DNA of 64,000 bases from NCBI RefSeq assembly GCF_012163145.1, contig NZ_JAAVTX010000005.1, positions 558,001 to 622,000 of the forward strand, written 5' to 3'. This document shows, in pieces, positions 46,712-63,933 of the stretch. Numbering within the stretch: position 1 is the first letter of the stretch; each line of letters begins with the position of its first letter. The stretch is from Falsiroseomonas frigidaquae. GTDB lineage: Bacteria; Pseudomonadota; Alphaproteobacteria; Acetobacterales; Acetobacteraceae. Under the pieces are notes generated by a model. The model worked only from the letters and a program-made list of their open reading frames with translations. It made no database searches and had not been told where the DNA came from. The position numbers and the translations under genes were made by a program.

Positions 46712-47422
46712 TCAGGCTGCGCGGACGACGATGGCCGTCACATTGTCCCGCGCGCCATTGGCCAGCGCCGCCTGCAGCAGCACCTCCGCCCCGAAGCCAT
46801 CCGTCAGCATGCGGCCGATCTCGGCTTCGGGCACGGCCTTGAACAGCCCGTCGCTGCATAGAAGAAACAGGTCCCCGGGGGCCAGGCGGGCGCTGGTCTT
46901 GTCGAGTTCCAGCTCCCCGGCGGCACCCACCGCGCGGGTGATGACATTGGCCTGCGGGTGGGCCTCCGCCTCCTCCTCCCGCAGCACGCCCTGGTCCACA
47001 AGGTCCTGCACCAGGCTGTGGTCGCGGGTCAGGCGGGTGAAGGCGCCGTCGCGCAGCAGGTAGATGCGGCTGTCGCCGGCCCACAGGCAGGCGAAATGCC
47101 CGCCACGCGCCAGCAGCACCGCCAGCGTGGTGGCGATGATCCGGCCCGGCCCGGCCTCCTGCGCCCGGCGCTGCAATTCCGCATGCACGGCGGTGATCCG
47201 CAGCCGCACCTGCGCCAGCATCTCCGCCGCCGAAAGCGCCGGCGGCAGGTCCTGCAACGCGGCGACGGCGGCGGCGGAGGCGACATCGCCGGCGCCATGC
47301 CCCCCCGCGCCATCGGCTACCGCCCACAGCCCGACATCGGGGCGGTCCACGAAGGCATCTTCGTTCCGAGATCGCACCGTACCAGGGTGGGTGGCGGCCT
47401 CGCTGGCCAATGCGCCGTTCAT
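46712..47422 (-). CDS. PP2C-family Ser/Thr phosphatase, T6SS-associated (PppA-like)
   Basis: A 236-residue PPM phosphatase with THPGTVRSRNEDAF, metal-binding VADGAGGHGAGDVAS, LWAGDSRIYLLRDG, RDHSLVQ, SDGLFKAVP and ARDNVTAIVV. In T6SS loci such enzymes reverse phosphorylation made by the kinase PpkA and so switch secretion off. The start overlaps the tagF stop (ATGA). No ppkA is in the window, but an FHA protein is, so the kinase may lie beyond the right edge. Confidence 0.92.
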   Translation of the reverse strand: MNGALASEAATHPGTVRSRNEDAFVDRPDVGLWAVADGAGGHGAGDVASAAAVAALQDLPPALSAAEMLAQVRLRITAVHAELQRRAQEAGPGRIIATTLAVLLARGGHFACLWAGDSRIYLLRDGAFTRLTRDHSLVQDLVDQGVLREEEAEAHPQANVITRAVGAAGELELDKTSARLAPGDLFLLCSDGLFKAVPEAEIGRMLTDGFGAEVLLQAALANGARDNVTAIVVRAA

Positions 47423-54185: not shown

Positions 54186-55904
54186 TCAGCGCTCTCGCCG
54201 TGTGGTGGCCTGTTCATAGGCCCTTGCGAAGGCCTTGCCGAAGGCGCTGTCGAAATCATCCTCGAACTGCTCCACCAGCAGCCCATGGCGGCGCCGGTAG
54301 GAATCCCACAGCCGCTTCTCCTTCGCGCCCGGCAGCAGGCCGCCGCCGGGATCGTCGGCCTCGATCGAGGCGGGGGCCAGGCGTTCCAGCAAGGCGCGGG
54401 CAGCGGCCTGGGTGGCGGCGAGCGTTGCCACCTGATGCGCCGTCAGATCCTCCACGGTCTCCTGCACCGCGGCCAGCGCCGGGCTGCGCGGGTCGAGCAG
54501 CGCGGCGAGGGCCTGGTCCTCGGTGGCGGCGAATTTCAGCGGGTTGTTGTTGGCCGCGCGGAGCATGGTCTGCTCGATGCGGAATTCGCGCTTCACATCG
54601 GCCCGCGCGATCAGCAGGGCGCGGATGCCGGTGATCGCGGCGCGCAGCACGGCACCGGCGGCACGCAGCGCGGCATCCGGATTCTGCGCGGCGAGTTGCG
54701 CTGCCATCTGCGGCGGCAGGCCGGCGCCGTCCAGCAGCGCGGCCAGGGATGCGGCGCTGTCCGGCGCGGGCATGGCGGGCGCGGGCATGGCGGGCGGAGG
54801 CATCGCAGGCGCGGGCGACTGGGCCGGCGGGACGTGCGGCACGGCGGCGGGCGGCGCACGGAAAGCGTCGTCGGTTTCGAGGAATGGGTCGCGCGGCGGT
54901 GGCGCCGGGGGTGCAGGCGGTTGGGGCGCGGCCGGCATCGGCGCAGACGGCATCGGCGCAGACGGCATCGGCGCGGACGGTATTGGGGTGGGCGGCACGG
55001 GCGCGAAGGGGTTCGCGGCCGGTGCGCCAAAGGGGTCGGCGGCGAAGGGGTCCACCGCTGGCGGCGGGGTGGGGCGCGGTGTCGGCGCGGCGGGTGGCGG
55101 CGCGGCCGGACGCGCGGGCGTGAGGTCCAGGTCCCAATCATCGGGGATCAGCGCCTTGCCGGCCGGCAGGCTCGGCGGGACCATGAAGGCCTCAGCGGTG
55201 GAGGGCGCGTGATCCGGCATCGGGCCCTGCTGCTCAGCGGGGCCGAAGGGGTCGAAATCATCCGGCAACAGCCCGCCGCCGCCCTGCCCCGGAGGGGCAC
55301 CAAAGCCCTGCCCCGGAGGGGTACCAAAGCCCTGCCCCGGAGGGGTACCAAAGCCCTGCCCCGGAGGGGTACCAAAGCCCTGCCCCGGAGGGGCGCCGAA
55401 ATCCTGCCCCGGCGGGGCGCCAAATCCCTGCCCCGGGGGGGTGCCGAAATCCTGTCCCGGCGGGGTGCTGAAGCCCGAACCTGAGGGAGCGCCGAAACCG
55501 GGCAGCGATGCGCCTCCGAAACCCTGGCTCGGCGGCGCGTTCGCGAAGGGGTCGGGTGCGGCGCCCCAGCCGGGCTGGTCCGCCGCCTCCGCGATCCGCA
55601 CCTCGATCTCATAGGCGCCGAGTCGCAGCCGGTCGCCATCCCGCAGCGGCCGAATCTGGTCGCGACCGACCGGCGCCTCGGCATGGTTCACGAAGGTGCC
55701 GTTGGTGGACAGGTCGCGCACCTGCCAGCCACCGCCGAAGAACTCCAGCACGCAGTGCCGCTTGGACAGCACGCGGTCCGGGTCGGCCAGCGGCCAGTCG
55801 CATTCCGCGGCGCGGCCCAGGCTGATCTCGCCGCCGGTGGCGCGGCGCTGGCCTGGCACCACGGCATCGGGGCAACGCAGCACGGACAGGGTGATTTCCG
55901 ACAT
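54186..55904 (-). CDS. tagH: T6SS FHA-domain protein TagH (Fha)
   Basis: A 572-residue protein. Residues 1-105 form an FHA phosphothreonine-binding domain with GRAAECDWPL, SKRHCVLEF and LSTNGTFVN, so the binding residues are present. A low-complexity middle (about 120-370) carries eight FGTPPGQG-type repeats and MPSAP repeats. The last 190 residues are the TagH C-terminal domain (ITGIRALLIARADVKREFRIEQTML...NNNPLKF). It probably reads phosphorylated TssL to promote assembly. The repeat region is much longer than usual. Confidence 0.94.
   Translation of the reverse strand: MSEITLSVLRCPDAVVPGQRRATGGEISLGRAAECDWPLADPDRVLSKRHCVLEFFGGGWQVRDLSTNGTFVNHAEAPVGRDQIRPLRDGDRLRLGAYEIEVRIAEAADQPGWGAAPDPFANAPPSQGFGGASLPGFGAPSGSGFSTPPGQDFGTPPGQGFGAPPGQDFGAPPGQGFGTPPGQGFGTPPGQGFGTPPGQGFGAPPGQGGGGLLPDDFDPFGPAEQQGPMPDHAPSTAEAFMVPPSLPAGKALIPDDWDLDLTPARPAAPPPAAPTPRPTPPPAVDPFAADPFGAPAANPFAPVPPTPIPSAPMPSAPMPSAPMPAAPQPPAPPAPPPRDPFLETDDAFRAPPAAVPHVPPAQSPAPAMPPPAMPAPAMPAPDSAASLAALLDGAGLPPQMAAQLAAQNPDAALRAAGAVLRAAITGIRALLIARADVKREFRIEQTMLRAANNNPLKFAATEDQALAALLDPRSPALAAVQETVEDLTAHQVATLAATQAAARALLERLAPASIEADDPGGGLLPGAKEKRLWDSYRRRHGLLVEQFEDDFDSAFGKAFARAYEQATTRRER
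55281..55472 (-). repeat. Eight 24-bp tandem repeats inside tagH
   Basis: Eight in-frame units encode F-[GS]-[TA]-PPGQ-[GD]. Three central units are nearly identical in DNA. The length is a multiple of three, so gain or loss of units would lengthen or shorten the flexible linker between the FHA and C-terminal domains without a frameshift. A second repeat of 15-base MPSAP units lies at about 54935-54990. Confidence 0.85.
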
Positions 55905-56841: not shown

Positions 56842-58827
56842 TCAGTTGATCATCACCAGGGCGCCCTCGACCTGGATCAGCGCGTCCCCCTTCTCCTGCA
56901 CCATCAGGCCCTTCACCTTGTGCACGAGCTGCGCCTCGCTGGTGATCAGCATGCCCTTCAGCGTGATGCCGGTCTGGTCCACCACCAGCGAGGATTGCCC
57001 GACCTTCAGCGTGATGGACTGCATCGCCTCCAGCGTGATGGCGCCGAGGTCGCATTTGATGGAGAGGTTGCCGAGCTTCAGGTTCGTGCTGTCATTGCCC
57101 ATCTTCAGCACGGTGTCGCGGTTGCCCATCTCGATAGCAAGCGAATCATTGCCCATCTTGATGGTCTCGGTCCGATTGCCCTTCTCCAGCGTCAGCGTGT
57201 CGTCCGCATCCTTCACCGTGACGGTGCGCGCATTCTGCACCACTTCGGTCTGGTTGTGGCCGATGGTGCGCTTCTCGTCGTTCTCGACCTCGACCGTGAG
57301 GTCCTTCTGCGCGTGCAGCGTGATGTCCTCGCTGCCCTTCTTGTCCTCGAAGCGCAGCATGTTGGCATCCGCCGCGCTGTCCGACTTGTAGCTGCGCGTC
57401 AGGATGCCGCTCTGCGCCTTGTTGGTGCCGGGCTTGAAAGGTGGCGGCGCATCCTTGCCATAGACCGATCCGACGACGATCGGCCGGTCCGGGTCGCCAT
57501 CGAGGAAGGCGACCAGCACCTCATCCCCCACGCGCGGTGGAAACCAGGTGCCGCCCCAGGCGCCGGCTGCCGTCTGCATGACGCGCACCCAGATCGAGGA
57601 GGTGTCGTCATCTTCCGCCCAGCGGTCCCAGCGGAAGCGCAGCTTCACGCGGCCGAATTCGTCGAGGTGGATCTTCTCCCCCTTCGGGCCGGTCACCTTG
57701 GCGGAATGCATGCCCGGCATGATCGGCCGCGTGTGGCGCGGCTGCGGCATCCAGACGCGGCCGGCGAAAACCAGGCGAAGCTGCGCGGCGTAATGCTCCG
57801 TCTGCCCCGCACCAGCGACGAGGCCGGAGGTGTCGGAGGCCTGGTGGCGGGCGCCAGTGACCAGGAACTGCCGGTTGTTGAGGCTGCCATCCTCCCGCTT
57901 CACGCCGACGAAAAGCCGCACGCCGGGGGCGAAGCGCGGGTCGCGCGCATCCGCGCCGTATTCCTCGGACGCGGCTTCCTGCGCGCCCATCAGCACCTCG
58001 CCGCTCTCCAGGTCGGGGCGGGTGGACATGCCGCCGGGCCAGTGGAACACCTCGCCCCCCGCCCACATCTGCGCTTCCTCGACATAGGTGCGGGTCTGCC
58101 TTGTGGCGTGCAGTACCTCGGAGGGCCGCGACCTTTCGCTGTCCATGTCGTCCAGCTTGGTCATGGCGCTGCGCGCGCGGTTGATGCGCCGCCAGCCGCC
58201 GAGATGGTCGAGCTGCGGCGCGCCATGTTCCGCCGTCATGCTCTCCACCACGTATTGCGGGAAGCCCTGCGCGCTGTAGGCCACGTTCATCTCGTGGCCG
58301 GAGGCACTATGGGTGAAGCTGTAGGTCAGCCCGTGTTCTTCCAGCAGGCGGGAGACGAAGTGCAGGTCGGTCTCGTTGAACTGGGTGCAGTAGGGCATCG
58401 GCTGGAAGCCGGGCAGCATGCTCCATTTCGGCTCCGCCAGGCCGTGGTCGGACAGCACGGCCTTCACCACCTCCTGCACCGTCTTGTCCTGGAAGATGCG
58501 GCAGTTGCGGCGCAGCCCGAGCCGCCACAGATTCGGCACCGCCACCAGGCGATAGGCCATGCGGCCGGCCGGGCCCGGGCCGAGGCGCTGGAATTCCGCC
58601 ACCACGCCATGGAAGTGCCGCACCAGCGGCGAGGGTCCATGCTGCGTGACGGTGATGCAGAGATCCTTGGTCAGCAGGCTCTCGGGCAGCAGGTCCGGAT
58701 CCTCGCCCAGCACCTCGGCCTCGATCGCGTAAGGCGTGCCCAGCTCCTCGGTCACGTTCAGCCGCACGACCATGAGGGCCCGGTCGGGCAGATGCGTCTT
58801 GATGCCGAGTAGTCGCGGAGGCTGCAT
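56842..58827 (-). CDS. vgrG: T6SS spike protein VgrG (TssI)
   Basis: A 661-residue protein with gp27-like N-terminal domains (HFHGVVAEFQRLG, FNETDLHFVSRLLEEHGLTYSF), the gp5 OB-fold (KLRFRWDRWAEDDDTSSIWVRVMQ, WFPPRVGDEVLVAFLDGDPDRPIVVGSVYG) and a long beta-helical needle of MGND/LGN-type repeats. It ends at KGDALIQVEGALVMIN with no toxin domain. The ATG at 58827 is chosen because homology (LLGIKTHLPDRALMVV) begins at once; a frame to 58938 runs into the promoter region. Confidence 0.95.
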   Translation of the reverse strand: MQPPRLLGIKTHLPDRALMVVRLNVTEELGTPYAIEAEVLGEDPDLLPESLLTKDLCITVTQHGPSPLVRHFHGVVAEFQRLGPGPAGRMAYRLVAVPNLWRLGLRRNCRIFQDKTVQEVVKAVLSDHGLAEPKWSMLPGFQPMPYCTQFNETDLHFVSRLLEEHGLTYSFTHSASGHEMNVAYSAQGFPQYVVESMTAEHGAPQLDHLGGWRRINRARSAMTKLDDMDSERSRPSEVLHATRQTRTYVEEAQMWAGGEVFHWPGGMSTRPDLESGEVLMGAQEAASEEYGADARDPRFAPGVRLFVGVKREDGSLNNRQFLVTGARHQASDTSGLVAGAGQTEHYAAQLRLVFAGRVWMPQPRHTRPIMPGMHSAKVTGPKGEKIHLDEFGRVKLRFRWDRWAEDDDTSSIWVRVMQTAAGAWGGTWFPPRVGDEVLVAFLDGDPDRPIVVGSVYGKDAPPPFKPGTNKAQSGILTRSYKSDSAADANMLRFEDKKGSEDITLHAQKDLTVEVENDEKRTIGHNQTEVVQNARTVTVKDADDTLTLEKGNRTETIKMGNDSLAIEMGNRDTVLKMGNDSTNLKLGNLSIKCDLGAITLEAMQSITLKVGQSSLVVDQTGITLKGMLITSEAQLVHKVKGLMVQEKGDALIQVEGALVMIN

Positions 58828-59051: not shown

Positions 59052-60167
59052 ATGCCGCGCCCTCATCCCATTGCCGACACCCAGGCAGGCCCGGTTCGGG
59101 CCAACCCGGTCGGGGCCAATCCGGTCGAGGCCAATCCGGTCGGGGCCAACCCGGTCGGGGCCAATCCAGTTCGGGGCAAGCTGCACCGCGGCCTCGCCAT
59201 GCTCACCGCCGCCACCATGCTGACGGCCTGCGTCTCGACGCGGGAGGCACGGATCGGTGGCGAGGACGGCGACGCCTGCCGCACGCAGCTCGTCGCGCTC
59301 GACAGCACCGGCAATTTCTTCGCCGAGGACATCCTGCGCGGCGCCGCCATGGGCGCGGTCGGCGGCGCGCTGATCGGCGGGCTGCTGGCCGCGGCCACCG
59401 GGCAGCGCGGCAGCGGCATCGCGGCGGGCGCCGCGATCGGCGCGGTGGGTGGCGGCGTGGTGGGCGGCACCGCCGGCTACCTCTCCGCCCGCCAGCAGCA
59501 GGCCACCGACCAGGCCTCGCTGAACCTGGCAGTGGCGGGCGACCTGGCGGCGGAGAACGCGCAGCTCGACCGCACCCAGATCGCCTTCGACCAGCTGATG
59601 GATTGCCGCTTCCGCAGCGCGGAACAGATCCGCGCCGATCTTCGCAGCGGGCGCCTCGCGCGGCCGCAGGCGGCGGCGGCGATGGAGAACATCCGCGCCC
59701 GCACGCAGCGCGACATCCAGCTGGCGCAGACCATCAACGGGCAGATCGCCAGCCGCGGCGCCCAGTTCGACACGGCGATCGACACCGTGGCCCCCGGCGT
59801 GAAGCAGGCCGCCGCCATGCCGGTGCGCGCCGTGCCGGCGCAGCCACGCGGCGACGTGAAGCTGTATCTCCGCCCCGATGCCGCCTCCCCGGCCGTCGCG
59901 CAATTGCCGCCGCGGGAACGGGTGACGCTGCGCCCGGCGCGCAACGGCTTCACCCAGGTGGAGACCAGCTCCGGCCTGCGCGGCTATGCGGCGACGCAAT
60001 CCTTCCCCGAGGCGCGCAGCCTGGAGGCCCGCCCGGCCGTGGCGGAGGGCGGCGACGTGCGTTCGCTGGCCGCCAGCAACATCGCCCGGCGCGACAACTT
60101 CGCCGAGAGCGTCGGCACGGCGGAGCGTGTGATGGCGCAGGGCCAGGGCTTCGAACTGGCGACCTGA
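59052..60167 (+). CDS. Glycine-zipper lipoprotein with SH3-like C-terminus and repeat-bearing N-terminus
   Basis: A 371-residue protein. Its lipobox LTAC puts the lipidated Cys at residue 60, after a hydrophobic stretch (LAMLTAATML). Residues 14-45 are five PVGAN-type repeats, odd ahead of a signal peptide. A start at ATG 59199 would leave only ten residues before the Cys. The mature part has a glycine zipper (MGAVGGALIGGLLAAATG...AIGAVGGGVVGG), a helical coiled region, and an SH3-like segment (DVKLYLRPDAASPAVAQLPPRERVTL). It may anchor to the outer membrane and bind peptidoglycan near the T6SS. Confidence 0.85.
   Translation: MPRPHPIADTQAGPVRANPVGANPVEANPVGANPVGANPVRGKLHRGLAMLTAATMLTACVSTREARIGGEDGDACRTQLVALDSTGNFFAEDILRGAAMGAVGGALIGGLLAAATGQRGSGIAAGAAIGAVGGGVVGGTAGYLSARQQQATDQASLNLAVAGDLAAENAQLDRTQIAFDQLMDCRFRSAEQIRADLRSGRLARPQAAAAMENIRARTQRDIQLAQTINGQIASRGAQFDTAIDTVAPGVKQAAAMPVRAVPAQPRGDVKLYLRPDAASPAVAQLPPRERVTLRPARNGFTQVETSSGLRGYAATQSFPEARSLEARPAVAEGGDVRSLAASNIARRDNFAESVGTAERVMAQGQGFELAT
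59091..59165 (+). repeat. Five 15-bp tandem repeats at the lipoprotein gene start
   Basis: Five units of CCGGTCGGGGCCAAT type, with a degenerate sixth to 59180. In frame they encode P-V-[GER]-A-N. They sit between the chosen ATG and the lipoprotein signal, so they could equally be an untranslated leader if translation starts at 59199. Confidence 0.85.
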
Positions 60168-60168
60168 G

Positions 60169-60420
60169 ATGCGCCGGCGCCCCGCCGGCCGCCGGCTGGT
60201 GGTGGATCGGGCGCAGCGCGCCTTTCGCCGCGCCTTCGCGGCAGGCGCGCTTGCGGGGCGGGCCTGTCGGGCCTCACCGGATGACGAGGATCTGGTCGCG
60301 GAAGAACGCGCGATGACCGGCGACCGTTGGTGGTATGCCGGAGCCCTCGGATACCTGCCGGAGACGATATGGCCCGACGATCTGGCTGGCCTGCTGGCCA
60401 CCGCGCTGCCAGCGCATTGA
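60169..60420 (+). CDS. 83-residue protein of unknown function in the caspase module
   Basis: The frame begins two bases after the lipoprotein stop, and its TGA overlaps the ATG of the caspase-like gene (TGATG). This tight packing argues that it is translated. The N-terminal half is Arg-rich (MRRRPAGRRLVVDRAQRAFR). The C-terminal half has a compact Trp-containing segment (TGDRWWYAGALGYLPETIWP) and a hydrophobic end. No signal peptide, membrane helix or family is recognised. A shorter product from ATG 60313 is possible. Confidence 0.55.
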   Translation: MRRRPAGRRLVVDRAQRAFRRAFAAGALAGRACRASPDDEDLVAEERAMTGDRWWYAGALGYLPETIWPDDLAGLLATALPAH

Positions 60421-63380
60421 TGCTTCGCACCGTCTGCCTGCTGCTGCTGCTGATCGGCTGCGTGGGGAATGTGGCGGCGCAGGTGCCCGAGCCGCCGCAG
60501 CAACCCTTCCTGCGGGTGGAGGCGGCCGCGCACACCGCCCCCGTGGCGCGACTGGCCACCGATGCGGCCGGGCGCATGCTGGCGAGCGTTTCCGACGACA
60601 AGACGCTGCGGCTGTGGGACCTGCCGGAAGGCACGCTGCGCGCCGTGCTGCGCCCACCCATCGCGCCGGAGGCGGAGGGCGAGCTTTACGCCGTGGCGCT
60701 GACGCCGGATGGCAGGCGCGCCTTCGTCGCCGGCTGGACCGGCGCGGCCTGGGACCGCAGCTATGCGATCTACCTGTTCGATACCGGCAGCGGCCGCATG
60801 CTGGCCCGCCTGCCCGGCCTGCCCGCGCCGGTGCAGCATCTGGCGCTGTCCGCCGATGGCGCGCGGCTGGCCGCGGCCTTCGGCGGACGCGCCGGCATCC
60901 GCGTCTGGAACGCGACCAACGGCGCGCCCTTGTGGGAGGATACGGGCTTCGCCGGCCCCGCCCGCATGGTGGCGTTCGAGCCGCGCGGCCCAAGGCTGGC
61001 CGCCAGCGGCGCCGACGGCAGGCTGCGCGTGTACGACGCCAGCGGCCGCAAGCTGGTGGAGCGTGTGCCGCTCGCCAATGCGCGCCCCTTCGGCCTCGCC
61101 TGGTCGCCGGATGGCGGGCTGATCGCGCTCGGCTTCGAGGACCGCCTGCAGGTGGAGGTGCTGGCCAGCAGTGATCTGCGCGCCGTCTTCACCCCCGATC
61201 TGGCGGGGCTGGAAGGTGAGGGCCTGCCCGCGGTGACCTGGGCGCAGGATGGCAGCGGTGGGGTGCAGCTGCATGCCGCCGGCTATGCGCGGCGCGCCGT
61301 GGTGGCGCGCGGCATCGCCACGCAACGGGACACGGCGCCGGCGGAATTCATCATCCGCCGCTGGGGCGATTACGGCCTCGGCGGCTTCACCGACGTGGCG
61401 GCGGCGCGGGATGCCATCGCGCATCTGCTGCCGCTGCCCGGCGGCGGCCTGGCCTTCGCCGCCGCCGATCCGGGCTGGGGGATGCTGGCGCCGGATGGCA
61501 GGCTCGCCATCGCACCGCGGCCGCCGGGGGCGGATTTCCGCAATACCGGCGCGGCGCTGGCGGTTTCCGCCGATGGCACGCGGCTGCGCGTTTCGCTGCG
61601 GCGGAACGGGGCGCCGCTGGTCTTCGATGCGTTGGCCGGCACACTTGGGACCGGCAGCCCTGGCGGCGCCGCAAGCGGTGCCTTCGCACAGGCGCGGACC
61701 GAAAGCACGAAGCTGGTGGTGACCAATTGGCAGGACACCAACAGCCCAAGGCTTGGCCGCACGCGGCTCGCGCTCGGCGCCGGTGAATTCGCCCGCAGCC
61801 TGGCGCTGCTGGACGGTGATGCCGGGCTGCTGCTCGGCACCGACAACCATCTGCGGCTGTTCAACGCGGCCGGCCGCCCGCTGGCCAGCCTGCCGGTGCC
61901 GGGCGCGGTCTGGGGGCTGGCGCTGGCAGGCGATGTCGCGGTCGGCGCGCTGGGCGATGGCACGCTGCGCTGGTGGCGGATTGCCGGCGGCACCATCACC
62001 GAACAGGCGGCGCTGTTCATCCATGCCGAAACGCAGCGCTGGGTGCTGTGGACGCCGGAGGGGCTGTTCGACCACGCGCCGAATGGCGGCCAGGAACTGG
62101 TCGGGCTGCATCTGAATGGTGGCCGCGCGCAGACGCCGGAATGGGCCAGCTTCCAGCAGGCCTATCGCGCGCTGTACGCACCGGCCGCGGTGCGCGCGCG
62201 CATCGCCGGGGATGGCGCGCCGGCTCGCGCCCGGCTGGCGCAGCTTGGCGAATTGCGCGCCCGCGTCGGCCGTCTGCCGCTGCTCGCACCGGAATCGGCC
62301 TGCGCCGTTACGCCCGCGGGCTGCACGGAACTGGCCTGGGACAGCCGCAGCCTGCCGGAAGGCGCGACCGCGCTGCGGCTGCGCTTCGCCACCACCGATC
62401 GGGGCCTCGGGCTGGGTCCGCTGGATGTGCTGGTGAATGACCGCATCGCCGCGCGCGCCGAACCCGAACTGGCCGCCGGGACCCGCGGCAATGCCGGGGC
62501 GCTGGAGGCGGAGGTGCCGCTGGACCCCGGCCCGAACCGCATCACCACGCGGTTATACGCCGAGGACCGCACGCTGTTCGCGGAGGGTCCGGCACTGGAT
62601 CTGCGCCGCGCCGGCGCCCAGGCGCCGCCGGAGGCCGGGCGGCTGGTGGTGCTGGCCATCGGCGTCAATCGCTACGCCAACCCGGCTTTGAACCTGAACT
62701 TCGCGGTGCCGGATGCGGAGGCCGTGGCGCGCGCGCTGCGCGCCCGGGCCGGCGGGCTGTTCCGCGACGTGCAGGTGACGGTGCTGCGCGATGCGCAGGC
62801 GACGCGGCGCGGCGTGCTGGCGGCGCTGGAGGATCTGGCACGCACGACCAAGCCGCAGGACACCTTCGTGCTGTATCTCGGCGGGCACGGCGTGCGGACG
62901 GAGCCGGACCAGCGCTTCCTGTTCCTGCCCCAGGACGCGACGGCAACCGGCGACTGGGCCACGCTGCGCCGGCAGGGGATCGAGGATTCGGTGCTGGTCG
63001 CCGCCATCGCCCGCATCCGCGCGCGCGACGGGCTGCTGCTGCTGGATACCTGCCACGCCGGCCAGTTGACGCTGGACCAGCTTTCCGCGCTGGGAAATGA
63101 GACCGGTCGCTTCCTGCTCGCCGCCAGCACTTCGGTGCAGGAGGCGCTGGACAGCTACGACGACCGCAACGGCGTGTTTGCCTTCGCAGTGCTGGAGGCA
63201 CTCGGCGGCCGCGCCGCGGCAGATGGCGAGGGCCGGGTCAGCGCGCTCGCGCTCGGCGAATGGGTGATGCGCCGCGTGCCGCAGCTCGCGGCCGAAAAGC
63301 GGCACCGGCAGGATGCGGTGTTCCGCAGCGCCAGCCGCGACCTGCGCAGCTTCTCGCTCGCGATCGTGCCGCAGCCCTGA
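60420..63380 (+). CDS. Exported WD40-repeat protein with C-terminal caspase-like (C14) peptidase domain
   Basis: A 986-residue protein with a signal peptide (MLRTVCLLLLLIGCVGNVAAQ). Residues about 35-560 form a WD40-type propeller (SVSDDKTLRLWDLPEGTLRAV, AGIRVWNATNGAPLWED, SGADGRLRVYDASG). A linker of about 180 residues leads to a caspase fold starting at VVLAIGVNRYANP. The catalytic dyad is His823 (LGGHG) and Cys878 (LDTCHAG). Such folds cleave after Arg/Lys in many bacterial relatives. Divergent placement inside a T6SS locus suggests a periplasmic role tied to secretion; effector, immunity or processing roles are all possible. Confidence 0.88.
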   Translation: MLRTVCLLLLLIGCVGNVAAQVPEPPQQPFLRVEAAAHTAPVARLATDAAGRMLASVSDDKTLRLWDLPEGTLRAVLRPPIAPEAEGELYAVALTPDGRRAFVAGWTGAAWDRSYAIYLFDTGSGRMLARLPGLPAPVQHLALSADGARLAAAFGGRAGIRVWNATNGAPLWEDTGFAGPARMVAFEPRGPRLAASGADGRLRVYDASGRKLVERVPLANARPFGLAWSPDGGLIALGFEDRLQVEVLASSDLRAVFTPDLAGLEGEGLPAVTWAQDGSGGVQLHAAGYARRAVVARGIATQRDTAPAEFIIRRWGDYGLGGFTDVAAARDAIAHLLPLPGGGLAFAAADPGWGMLAPDGRLAIAPRPPGADFRNTGAALAVSADGTRLRVSLRRNGAPLVFDALAGTLGTGSPGGAASGAFAQARTESTKLVVTNWQDTNSPRLGRTRLALGAGEFARSLALLDGDAGLLLGTDNHLRLFNAAGRPLASLPVPGAVWGLALAGDVAVGALGDGTLRWWRIAGGTITEQAALFIHAETQRWVLWTPEGLFDHAPNGGQELVGLHLNGGRAQTPEWASFQQAYRALYAPAAVRARIAGDGAPARARLAQLGELRARVGRLPLLAPESACAVTPAGCTELAWDSRSLPEGATALRLRFATTDRGLGLGPLDVLVNDRIAARAEPELAAGTRGNAGALEAEVPLDPGPNRITTRLYAEDRTLFAEGPALDLRRAGAQAPPEAGRLVVLAIGVNRYANPALNLNFAVPDAEAVARALRARAGGLFRDVQVTVLRDAQATRRGVLAALEDLARTTKPQDTFVLYLGGHGVRTEPDQRFLFLPQDATATGDWATLRRQGIEDSVLVAAIARIRARDGLLLLDTCHAGQLTLDQLSALGNETGRFLLAASTSVQEALDSYDDRNGVFAFAVLEALGGRAAADGEGRVSALALGEWVMRRVPQLAAEKRHRQDAVFRSASRDLRSFSLAIVPQP

Positions 63381-63453: not shown

Positions 63454-63933
63454 TCAGCCGGACTTGGCGGTGGCGATGTCGTAGATCACGTGGCCCGTGG
63501 TGGTCGACTTGAACTTGTCGTCCACCTTCAGGTACTCGCTGTCCACCTTGGTGAAGTTGAACGACAGCGACTCCGACGGGCGGTCGCCGCCGCTGCTCAG
63601 CGAGTAGCCGCTGATCAGCGTGTTGGTCAGGATGTACTTCTGGTAGGCGATGTGCTTGCCGCTCGCATCCGTCTGCGTCAGGTCGATCTTCACGGTCTTC
63701 GCGTCACCGCCGATCGCTTCCTTCAGCATGAGCGGGGAGATCGCGTCCATCGTCTTGGTCACGACGATCTCGGACACGCTCGGCGCCGTCGCCTCGCGCT
63801 TGGAGCCGCCGCCGACGCCGGAGGAAATGCCACGGCCGACGCCCCACTGAAGGCTCTGGACCTCCATCCACTTCTCGTAGCCCGTCGCCGTCGCCTCGCC
63901 CGCGAGGTCGCCATACTTGATGAAGATCGCCAT
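63454..63933 (-). CDS. hcp: T6SS tube protein Hcp (TssD)
   Basis: A 159-residue Hcp: IFIKYGDLAGEATATGYEKWMEV, SLQWGVGRGISSGVGGGSKREA, the VTKTMDAISPLMLKEAIGG segment and SLSFNFTKVDSEYL. It stacks as hexamers in the inner tube and carries small effectors. AAGGGA lies before the ATG. Its own terminator fits the high expression Hcp needs. The 67 bases from 63934 to the edge hold its leader; the sheath genes (tssB/C) would be expected further right. Confidence 0.96.
   Translation of the reverse strand: MAIFIKYGDLAGEATATGYEKWMEVQSLQWGVGRGISSGVGGGSKREATAPSVSEIVVTKTMDAISPLMLKEAIGGDAKTVKIDLTQTDASGKHIAYQKYILTNTLISGYSLSSGGDRPSESLSFNFTKVDSEYLKVDDKFKSTTTGHVIYDIATAKSG

Follow-up and report, generated by a model that had tools for sequence, protein, structure and literature searches.

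Post-translational control of the type VI secretion system (T6SS) is described as acting through kinases, phosphatases, TagF and TagQRST, and a caspase is unmentioned in the available text of PMC10482370. In Pseudomonas, TagQ and TagR act upstream of the kinase PpkA (PMC10482370, in part), and PpkA signalling usually has TagH, an FHA protein, as its phospho-target or reader (PMC12607579, in part). Here we analyse a stretch of 64,000 nucleotides from Falsiroseomonas frigidaquae (C15:558001-622000, called the window throughout) within a genome of 6.08 Mb. In its T6SS cluster, a gene for a predicted lipoprotein stands upstream of a gene for an exported-looking caspase with WD40 repeats. This lipoprotein-caspase pair is associated with T6SS by co-occurrence, by repeated linkage and by one case of joint decay, in agreement with an original prediction, made from the sequence of the window, that had tied an envelope-linked WD40-caspase and its lipoprotein to T6SS. 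Our tentative suggestion, which falls a little short of being probable, is that the pair is an envelope accessory of T6SS control, acting by the mechanism proposed below.

Comparison with described systems

TagQRST-PpkA of the Pseudomonas aeruginosa H1-T6SS resembles this locus in that a glycine-zipper lipoprotein of the outer membrane is encoded with a second envelope protein, and the T6SS here, as in its hosts, has PpkA, PppA, TagH and TagF (PMC10482370 and PMC12607579, both in part). In the TagQ loci that were fetched, TagQ adjoins a protein taken by eye as TagR. Unlike TagQRST, the partner here is the exported-looking WD40-caspase, and the C-terminal part of the lipoprotein is SH3-like. 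The lipoprotein scores 52.5 bits against the TagQ model (NF041250, VI_TagQ), far under the equivalog cut-off of 300, and no TagR, TagS or TagT was found among the scanned cluster genes (46712 to 82248 in window numbering, one gene being unscanned and the rest of the genome not searched). TssW of Acidovorax citrulli is also an accessory envelope protein tied to PpkA, and to T6SS positioning (PMC12607579, in part); the likeness is one of description, and caspases have 0 occurrences in the available text of that source.

Among prokaryotic metacaspases and orthocaspases, WD40 is one of the commonest partner domains, found in 10.9% of sequences (PMC3501461, in part). The protein in the window shares with them a C14 domain with a His/Cys dyad, but differs from those described in being exported-looking, lipoprotein-paired and T6SS-tied, and neither of the latter two traits is mentioned in the available text of PMC3501461. 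The best NCBIfam match is to EACC1-associated caspases (NF047832), at 84.6 bits under a cut-off of 140, and no EACC1 model matched among the scanned neighbours. Caspase-like domains are treated in other conflict systems in the available text of PMC7159879, where type VI secretion appears only in the reference list, and caspase-family proteins and T6SS are named separately in Janthinobacterium (PMC8929069, in part). No publication on a T6SS-linked lipoprotein-caspase module was found in the open-licence PubMed Central literature. To our knowledge, bacterial caspases have been assigned few physiological roles; if the reading suggested here is true, they would gain an envelope role, and T6SS control would gain a possible proteolytic step.

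Association with T6SS across genomes

A close orthologue of the caspase (best E ≤1e-160) was found in 30 of 150 genomes of the family, defined here by the family code of the genome collection (NCBI places its members in Acetobacteraceae, Roseomonadaceae and Elioraeaceae). TssC was matched in 29 of these 30, versus 79 of 150 overall (Fisher p ~1e-8, from counts that ignore kinship), and a tally by genus gave 23 of 23 versus 61 of 102 (p ~1e-6). When all weaker caspase matches are included, 34 of 37 family genomes carry TssC. The three that do not are G015 and G106, which have a divergent homologue without the lipoprotein, and G045. Within the genus Falsiroseomonas, the caspase occurs in 10 of 16 genomes and TssC in 12, and all 10 fall inside the 12 (p 0.008). 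Few candidates were scored per genome (up to 5 in the caspase search, 2 in the class draw described below), and absences are therefore not firm.

Genome G045 has no TssC or TssK match, and its lipoprotein and caspase genes each carry one in-frame stop. In G125, which has the same genus code, TssC is present and the pair is open. Judged by these stops, G045 is one case of joint decay of the pair with the absence of T6SS.

Linkage was examined in the best 80 of 133 loci from a scan of genomes, a set biased to close relatives; genes in these neighbourhoods were called in-house and named by blastp with the T6SS proteins of the window's own genome. Core T6SS genes lie within the fetched flanks of 25 loci (22 with at least two kinds), and 2 more have PpkA; the flanks of 55 loci, these 2 included and some of them short, have no core T6SS genes. 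An even family draw gave 33 loci from 31 of the 36 other matching genomes (G004, G041, G084, G091 and G148 were left out). Here, 2 loci from one genus have core T6SS genes and 2 from one genus have PpkA, and 31 of the 33 lack core genes, again with some short flanks. By position, homologues are thus found mostly outside T6SS loci, an outcome that the original prediction had named as speaking against it, yet TssC accompanies a close orthologue in 29 of the 30 family genomes that have one. For this reason linkage alone is the wrong test, and co-occurrence was tested besides it because most copies are unlinked.

Where the pair is linked, its surroundings differ. It lies between VgrG and Hcp in 7 Falsiroseomonas-type loci as well as in the window. 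In the Roseococcus group the order is lipoprotein-caspase-VgrG-DUF6931-PAAR-TagH-TssK-TssL-TssM in a single orientation, with 34-85 bases between caspase and VgrG in 9 of the 10 loci where both adjoin. In AR75 the pair follows TssM-TagF-PppA of a divergent T6SS after 71 bases; its caspase is 71% identical to that of the window, though TssM is only 46% and TssK 69% identical. In G875, from another family and with a caspase 50% identical, the pair is divergent from TssA-TssB-TssC with one gene between; this is the only one of 8 homologue genomes outside the family with the pair near T6SS genes. Four loci (L099, L102, L105 and L133) have a conserved gene of 196-197 amino acids on the opposite strand after the caspase, toward VgrG.

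On a tree of all rows (84 caspases of 701-1299 amino acids, 26 linked), the label linked or unlinked changes 9 times. With unlinked rows of less than 5 kb of flank set aside there are 6 changes on 68 rows, and with ten distant or duplicate rows also left out there are 6 on 59 rows (25 linked), 5 of them forced by starred branches. On this tree, linked copies are placed in several clades and gene orders. It is very unlikely that an unrelated operon landed by accident in the T6SS cluster of this genus: the loci of the even family draw, mostly unlinked, would suit such an accident, but linkage recurs in several clades with different orders (9 changes, or 6 without the unlinked short-flank rows), by our own estimate only ~1% of positions (~56 kb of 5 Mb) would be that close to a T6SS cluster, and co-occurrence and joint decay would both be left unexplained.

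Median identities to the window's proteins in the Roseococcus group are 64% for the caspase, 65% for TssM, 63% for TssL and 41% for VgrG. By identity the caspase thus goes with TssM and TssL and not with VgrG, a point in favour of a role in T6SS control. The values also bear on the view that the adjacent VgrG delivers the caspase, either as a T6SS effector itself or as a protease that works on effectors. The gene does adjoin VgrG and PAAR genes in several lineages, but the protein is one conserved orthologue that evolves like TssM in this group while VgrG diverges, its N-terminus is hydrophobic and of Sec type in 57 of 58 rows, and its upstream partner is a constant lipoprotein, not variable cargo (immunity genes were not searched as such). 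Moreover, it is mostly encoded away from T6SS genes. We consider delivery by VgrG the least probable of the explanations, and the option of an effector raised by the original prediction is not supported.

The caspase and the lipoprotein

The lipoprotein gene lies directly upstream of the caspase gene in 71 of the 80 loci; 7 of the other 9 are at contig edges, the remaining two being L133 and L137. Pairing is the rule also in the 33 family loci, where L058, L060, L061 and L065, all divergent, and L059 and L064, both truncated at an edge, are among the caspase-like genes without a lipoprotein. The relative nearest by caspase is a Falsiroseomonas metagenome-assembled genome, L067 (93% identity). 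Caspases were aligned as the window protein with 61 of 68 references (those of ≤600 amino acids were dropped), and lipoproteins as the window protein with 63 of 66 (≤200 amino acids dropped).

The caspase has a signal peptide at about residues 1-21 (by eye), WD40 or propeller-type repeats from about residue 35 and a caspase domain at about 743-953. Peptidase_C14 (PF00656) scores 41.4 bits against a cut-off of 21.4, the one such match in the genome, and WD40 scores 53.6 against 27. The exported-looking WD40-caspase with an intact His/Cys dyad that had been predicted is supported by the alignment, in which the hydrophobic Sec-type segment is found in 57 of the 58 rows having an N-terminus and both dyad residues are kept in all 62 rows. 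The cysteines at 628 and 635 are also invariant (62 of 62), and this pair would suit an oxidising compartment. In a set of 21 rows that includes distant homologues, 19 reach the caspase domain and all 19 keep His and Cys; the other two, L179 and L180, end ahead of it. By score and dyad the protein is a member of the Peptidase C14 (caspase) family, and proteolysis is predicted. A defence-system reading was considered and dropped, as it had nothing beyond a PADLOC 'caspase' match of 48 bits.

In the lipoprotein alignment a lipobox-like motif is present in 62 of 64 rows, followed by a glycine zipper, a middle part, an SH3-like stretch (SH3_3, 21.7 bits, under a cut-off of 27) and a conserved tail. 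The 52.5-bit match is the sole match to the TagQ model in the genome. The cut-off was passed by 6 of 398 genomes of the phylum, at 503-524 bits, and the controls, one E. coli and one Caulobacter genome, also gave matches under it. Compared with a profile of six TagQ proteins, the lipoprotein profile reached 99% probability over 194 columns. An unrelated zipper/OmpA protein, however, matches TagQ at 97% (52 columns) and the lipoprotein profile at 95% (49 columns), through the zipper only. The zipper-free parts gave 3.5% after the zipper and 31% before it, with 0.04% for a reversed control, so that the resemblance rests mainly on the zipper. Because these zipper-free comparisons were not significant, identity with TagQ was rejected, and the lipoprotein is TagQ-like in predicted architecture only. 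Among solved structures, its profile has only weak matches in the zipper region, to an OmpA-family protein (E 0.0057) and to SlyB (E 0.008).

The copy in the window has a six-copy repeat of 15 bp (59090-59179) that puts an ANPVG-type stretch ahead of the signal peptide and was not seen in the other aligned lipoprotein rows. The start or the export of this copy may be altered by the repeat, and its true start is unsure because of this N-terminus. A further lipoprotein of this type (39%) is encoded elsewhere in the genome (G000:C13:236953-237789, L186), with no caspase adjoining.

Possible role of the pair

Two Siccirubricoccus loci have, downstream of the pair, a PpkA 77% identical over the aligned part to that of the window's cluster, separated from it by 312 bases in L100 and by one gene in L107. 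In their genomes (G063 and G138) this PpkA is the sole match to a query made of the PpkA C-terminus. The same query matches 24 of the 30 genomes with a close caspase orthologue and 26 of 50 other T6SS genomes; at an identity of at least 46% it matches 16 genomes, 13 of which have a close caspase orthologue. Another gene encoding a PpkA-like C-terminus (43%) is present in the window's own genome (G000:C14:241541-242176, L187).

We infer that PpkA is the best candidate for a partner of the pair, because it is the sole T6SS gene beside the Siccirubricoccus pair, because the AR75 pair is next to PppA and TagF, and because the Pseudomonas proteins TagQ and TagR act upstream of PpkA. The pair would plausibly act upstream of PpkA. 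Under the mechanism proposed here, an acyl anchor and the glycine zipper would fix the lipoprotein in the outer membrane, from where it would keep the exported caspase in the periplasm. Through its WD40 part the caspase would dock on a presumed partner, for which PpkA (in its periplasmic part) and the TssL/TssM complex are the two candidates, and would cut a partner. In metacaspases a DTC motif goes with cleavage after basic residues, and if it acts so here the cut would follow a basic residue. By way of PpkA, TagH and PppA, the cut might then license T6SS assembly or reset it, perhaps when the envelope has been damaged, with the sign of the effect presumed. A response to incoming T6SS attack, one of the options of the original prediction, may apply and is close to this preferred reading. 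A more specific form, in which the periplasmic caspase is a sensor of damage or attack that switches T6SS by proteolysis, is held at the outer membrane by the lipoprotein, replaces TagR and gates PpkA, seems to us unlikely as a whole.

Several findings weigh against a role in T6SS control. Most copies are unlinked in both surveys of loci, TagR and TagST were not found in the scanned cluster, and the lipoprotein resembles TagQ chiefly through its zipper. In Falsiroseomonas, the medians (caspase 78%, TssM 83%, VgrG 70%, lipoprotein 66%) give only a weak VgrG contrast. The three genomes that match the PpkA query at an identity of 46% or more and have no close caspase orthologue (G015, G106 and G075) have the same type of PpkA C-terminus and no TssC match, and this type of kinase may consequently also work without T6SS or have other partners. 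Two of them, G015 and G106, carry a divergent caspase as well (L060 and L061).

The pair is also absent from many genomes with T6SS: 50 of the 79 TssC-bearing family genomes have no close orthologue, and in Falsiroseomonas 2 of the 12 (G153 and G159) have TssC but no caspase. The pair is thus dispensable for T6SS. For the same reason it cannot be a general anchor, and the idea that the lipoprotein anchors or positions the T6SS membrane complex at the outer membrane, like TssW of Acidovorax, aided by the caspase in a structural or remodelling capacity, is distinctly unlikely; the invariant catalytic dyad moreover argues for catalysis. The idea draws on TssW as an accessory outer membrane protein that binds PpkA and TssM (PMC12607579, in part), on the OmpA domain carried by TssL of the cluster, and on the lack of a TssJ-type match among the scanned genes from PppA to PpkA (one OmpA-type gene at the border of L032 and L033 was unscanned, and TssJ was not searched genome-wide).

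Further points of the same kind come from distant homologues. A class draw of 385 genomes, the window's own and some of the family among them, gave a caspase homologue at E ≤1e-40 in 8 genomes from outside the family. The pair is present in G705, in G605 (lipoprotein by eye) and in G794, and the first two have no TssK match. It occurs also in another class, in G203 and G263, beside response regulators (T6SS was not searched there). At L190 and L191 of that class, a second, shorter caspase gene comes after the pair, which is divergent from response-regulator genes. From these homologues, the pair is judged to extend beyond Alphaproteobacteria and, because distant pairs occur outside the family and in another class, to be older than its T6SS association. 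A TssK search of 12 homologue genomes (8 outside the family) gave 3 matches, one of them weak and partial, all among the 8; with TssK in no more than 3 of the 8 homologue genomes from outside, the claim of co-occurrence is limited to the family.

These distant pairs, the unlinked majority of family copies and the weak zipper-region structure matches would all suit a pair with a general task in envelope stress or quality control, of use to cells that make T6SS attacks or are exposed to them, with no direct part in T6SS control. Such a pair would not be expected to have close orthologues nearly confined, within the family, to T6SS genomes (29 of 30), with both genes broken in the one exception, nor linked gene orders that recur with different T6SS clusters. 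We regard this explanation as somewhat unlikely and tentatively prefer an envelope accessory of T6SS control.

The T6SS cluster and its gene order

Coordinates of the features are collected in Table 1. The cluster spans from PppA (46712) to the PpkA kinase, 16-18 kb past the end of the window. Its minus-strand arm comprises PppA, TagF, TssM, TssL, TssK, TagH, PAAR, DUF6931 and VgrG, and is followed on the plus strand by the genes for the lipoprotein, an open reading frame (ORF) of 83 amino acids and the WD40-caspase, and on the minus strand by Hcp and ClpV. Beyond the window, TssA, TssB, TssC, a second TssC, TagJ, TssE, TssF and TssG are on the plus strand, with a methyltransferase, two OmpA-type genes and a gene of 319 amino acids after them, and then PpkA on the minus strand, which has a DUF4384 match below cut-off. 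Because the cluster goes on in the plus strand past the window, the pair lies mid-way in a bidirectional cluster. The predicted placement of plus-strand genes between minus-strand vgrG and hcp therefore stands, but the cluster is not otherwise minus-strand. Of the tight packing that had been described, the TGATG overlap is present, and the gap of two bases is one base (TGA G ATG).

Table 1. Features of the T6SS cluster in the window, in window numbering.
Feature	Coordinates	Strand	Evidence
PppA-type PP2C phosphatase	46712..47422	-	PP2C_2 59.9 bits
TagH (FHA)	54186..55904	-	TIGR03354 266 bits
VgrG, divergent neighbour of the pair	56842..58827	-	TIGR03361 440 bits
Glycine-zipper / SH3-like lipoprotein, 371 aa, TagQ-like in architecture	59052..60167	+	sub-cut-off profile matches, lipobox, pairing
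15-bp tandem repeat, 6 copies, within the annotated N-terminus of the lipoprotein	59090..59179	+	sequence
Lipobox cysteine codon (Cys60)	59229..59231	+	sequence; Cys in 63/64 aligned rows
83-aa ORF, private to this genome, outside the conserved module	60169..60420	+	ORF only
WD40-caspase (C14), 986 aa	60420..63380	+	Pfam WD40 and Peptidase_C14 over cut-off
Catalytic His823 codon	62886..62888	+	His in 62/62 aligned rows
Catalytic Cys878 codon (DTCHAG)	63051..63053	+	Cys in 62/62; Asp876 in 62/62
Hcp, convergent neighbour of the pair	63454..63933	-	PF05638 100 bits

The 83-amino-acid ORF had been counted as the middle gene of a three-gene module. In 15 other genomes of the genus its best match had an E of 0.025 and none was convincing, and tblastn against the other loci then fetched gave two chance-level matches only (E 0.47 and 0.56). 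It has no Pfam, NCBIfam or PADLOC match and a low coding score (16 for 83 codons), and in L067 a single base separates the lipoprotein and caspase genes in its place. The three-gene module is accordingly rejected, and because the ORF is private to this genome the module consists of two genes. The ORF may be a private insertion.

The protein of 319 amino acids encoded beside PpkA (L033 1109-2065, or 79109-80065 in window numbering) had zero Pfam or NCBIfam matches. It contains the motif HHELSHG, of HExxH type by eye, and is a possible second envelope protease of the cluster.

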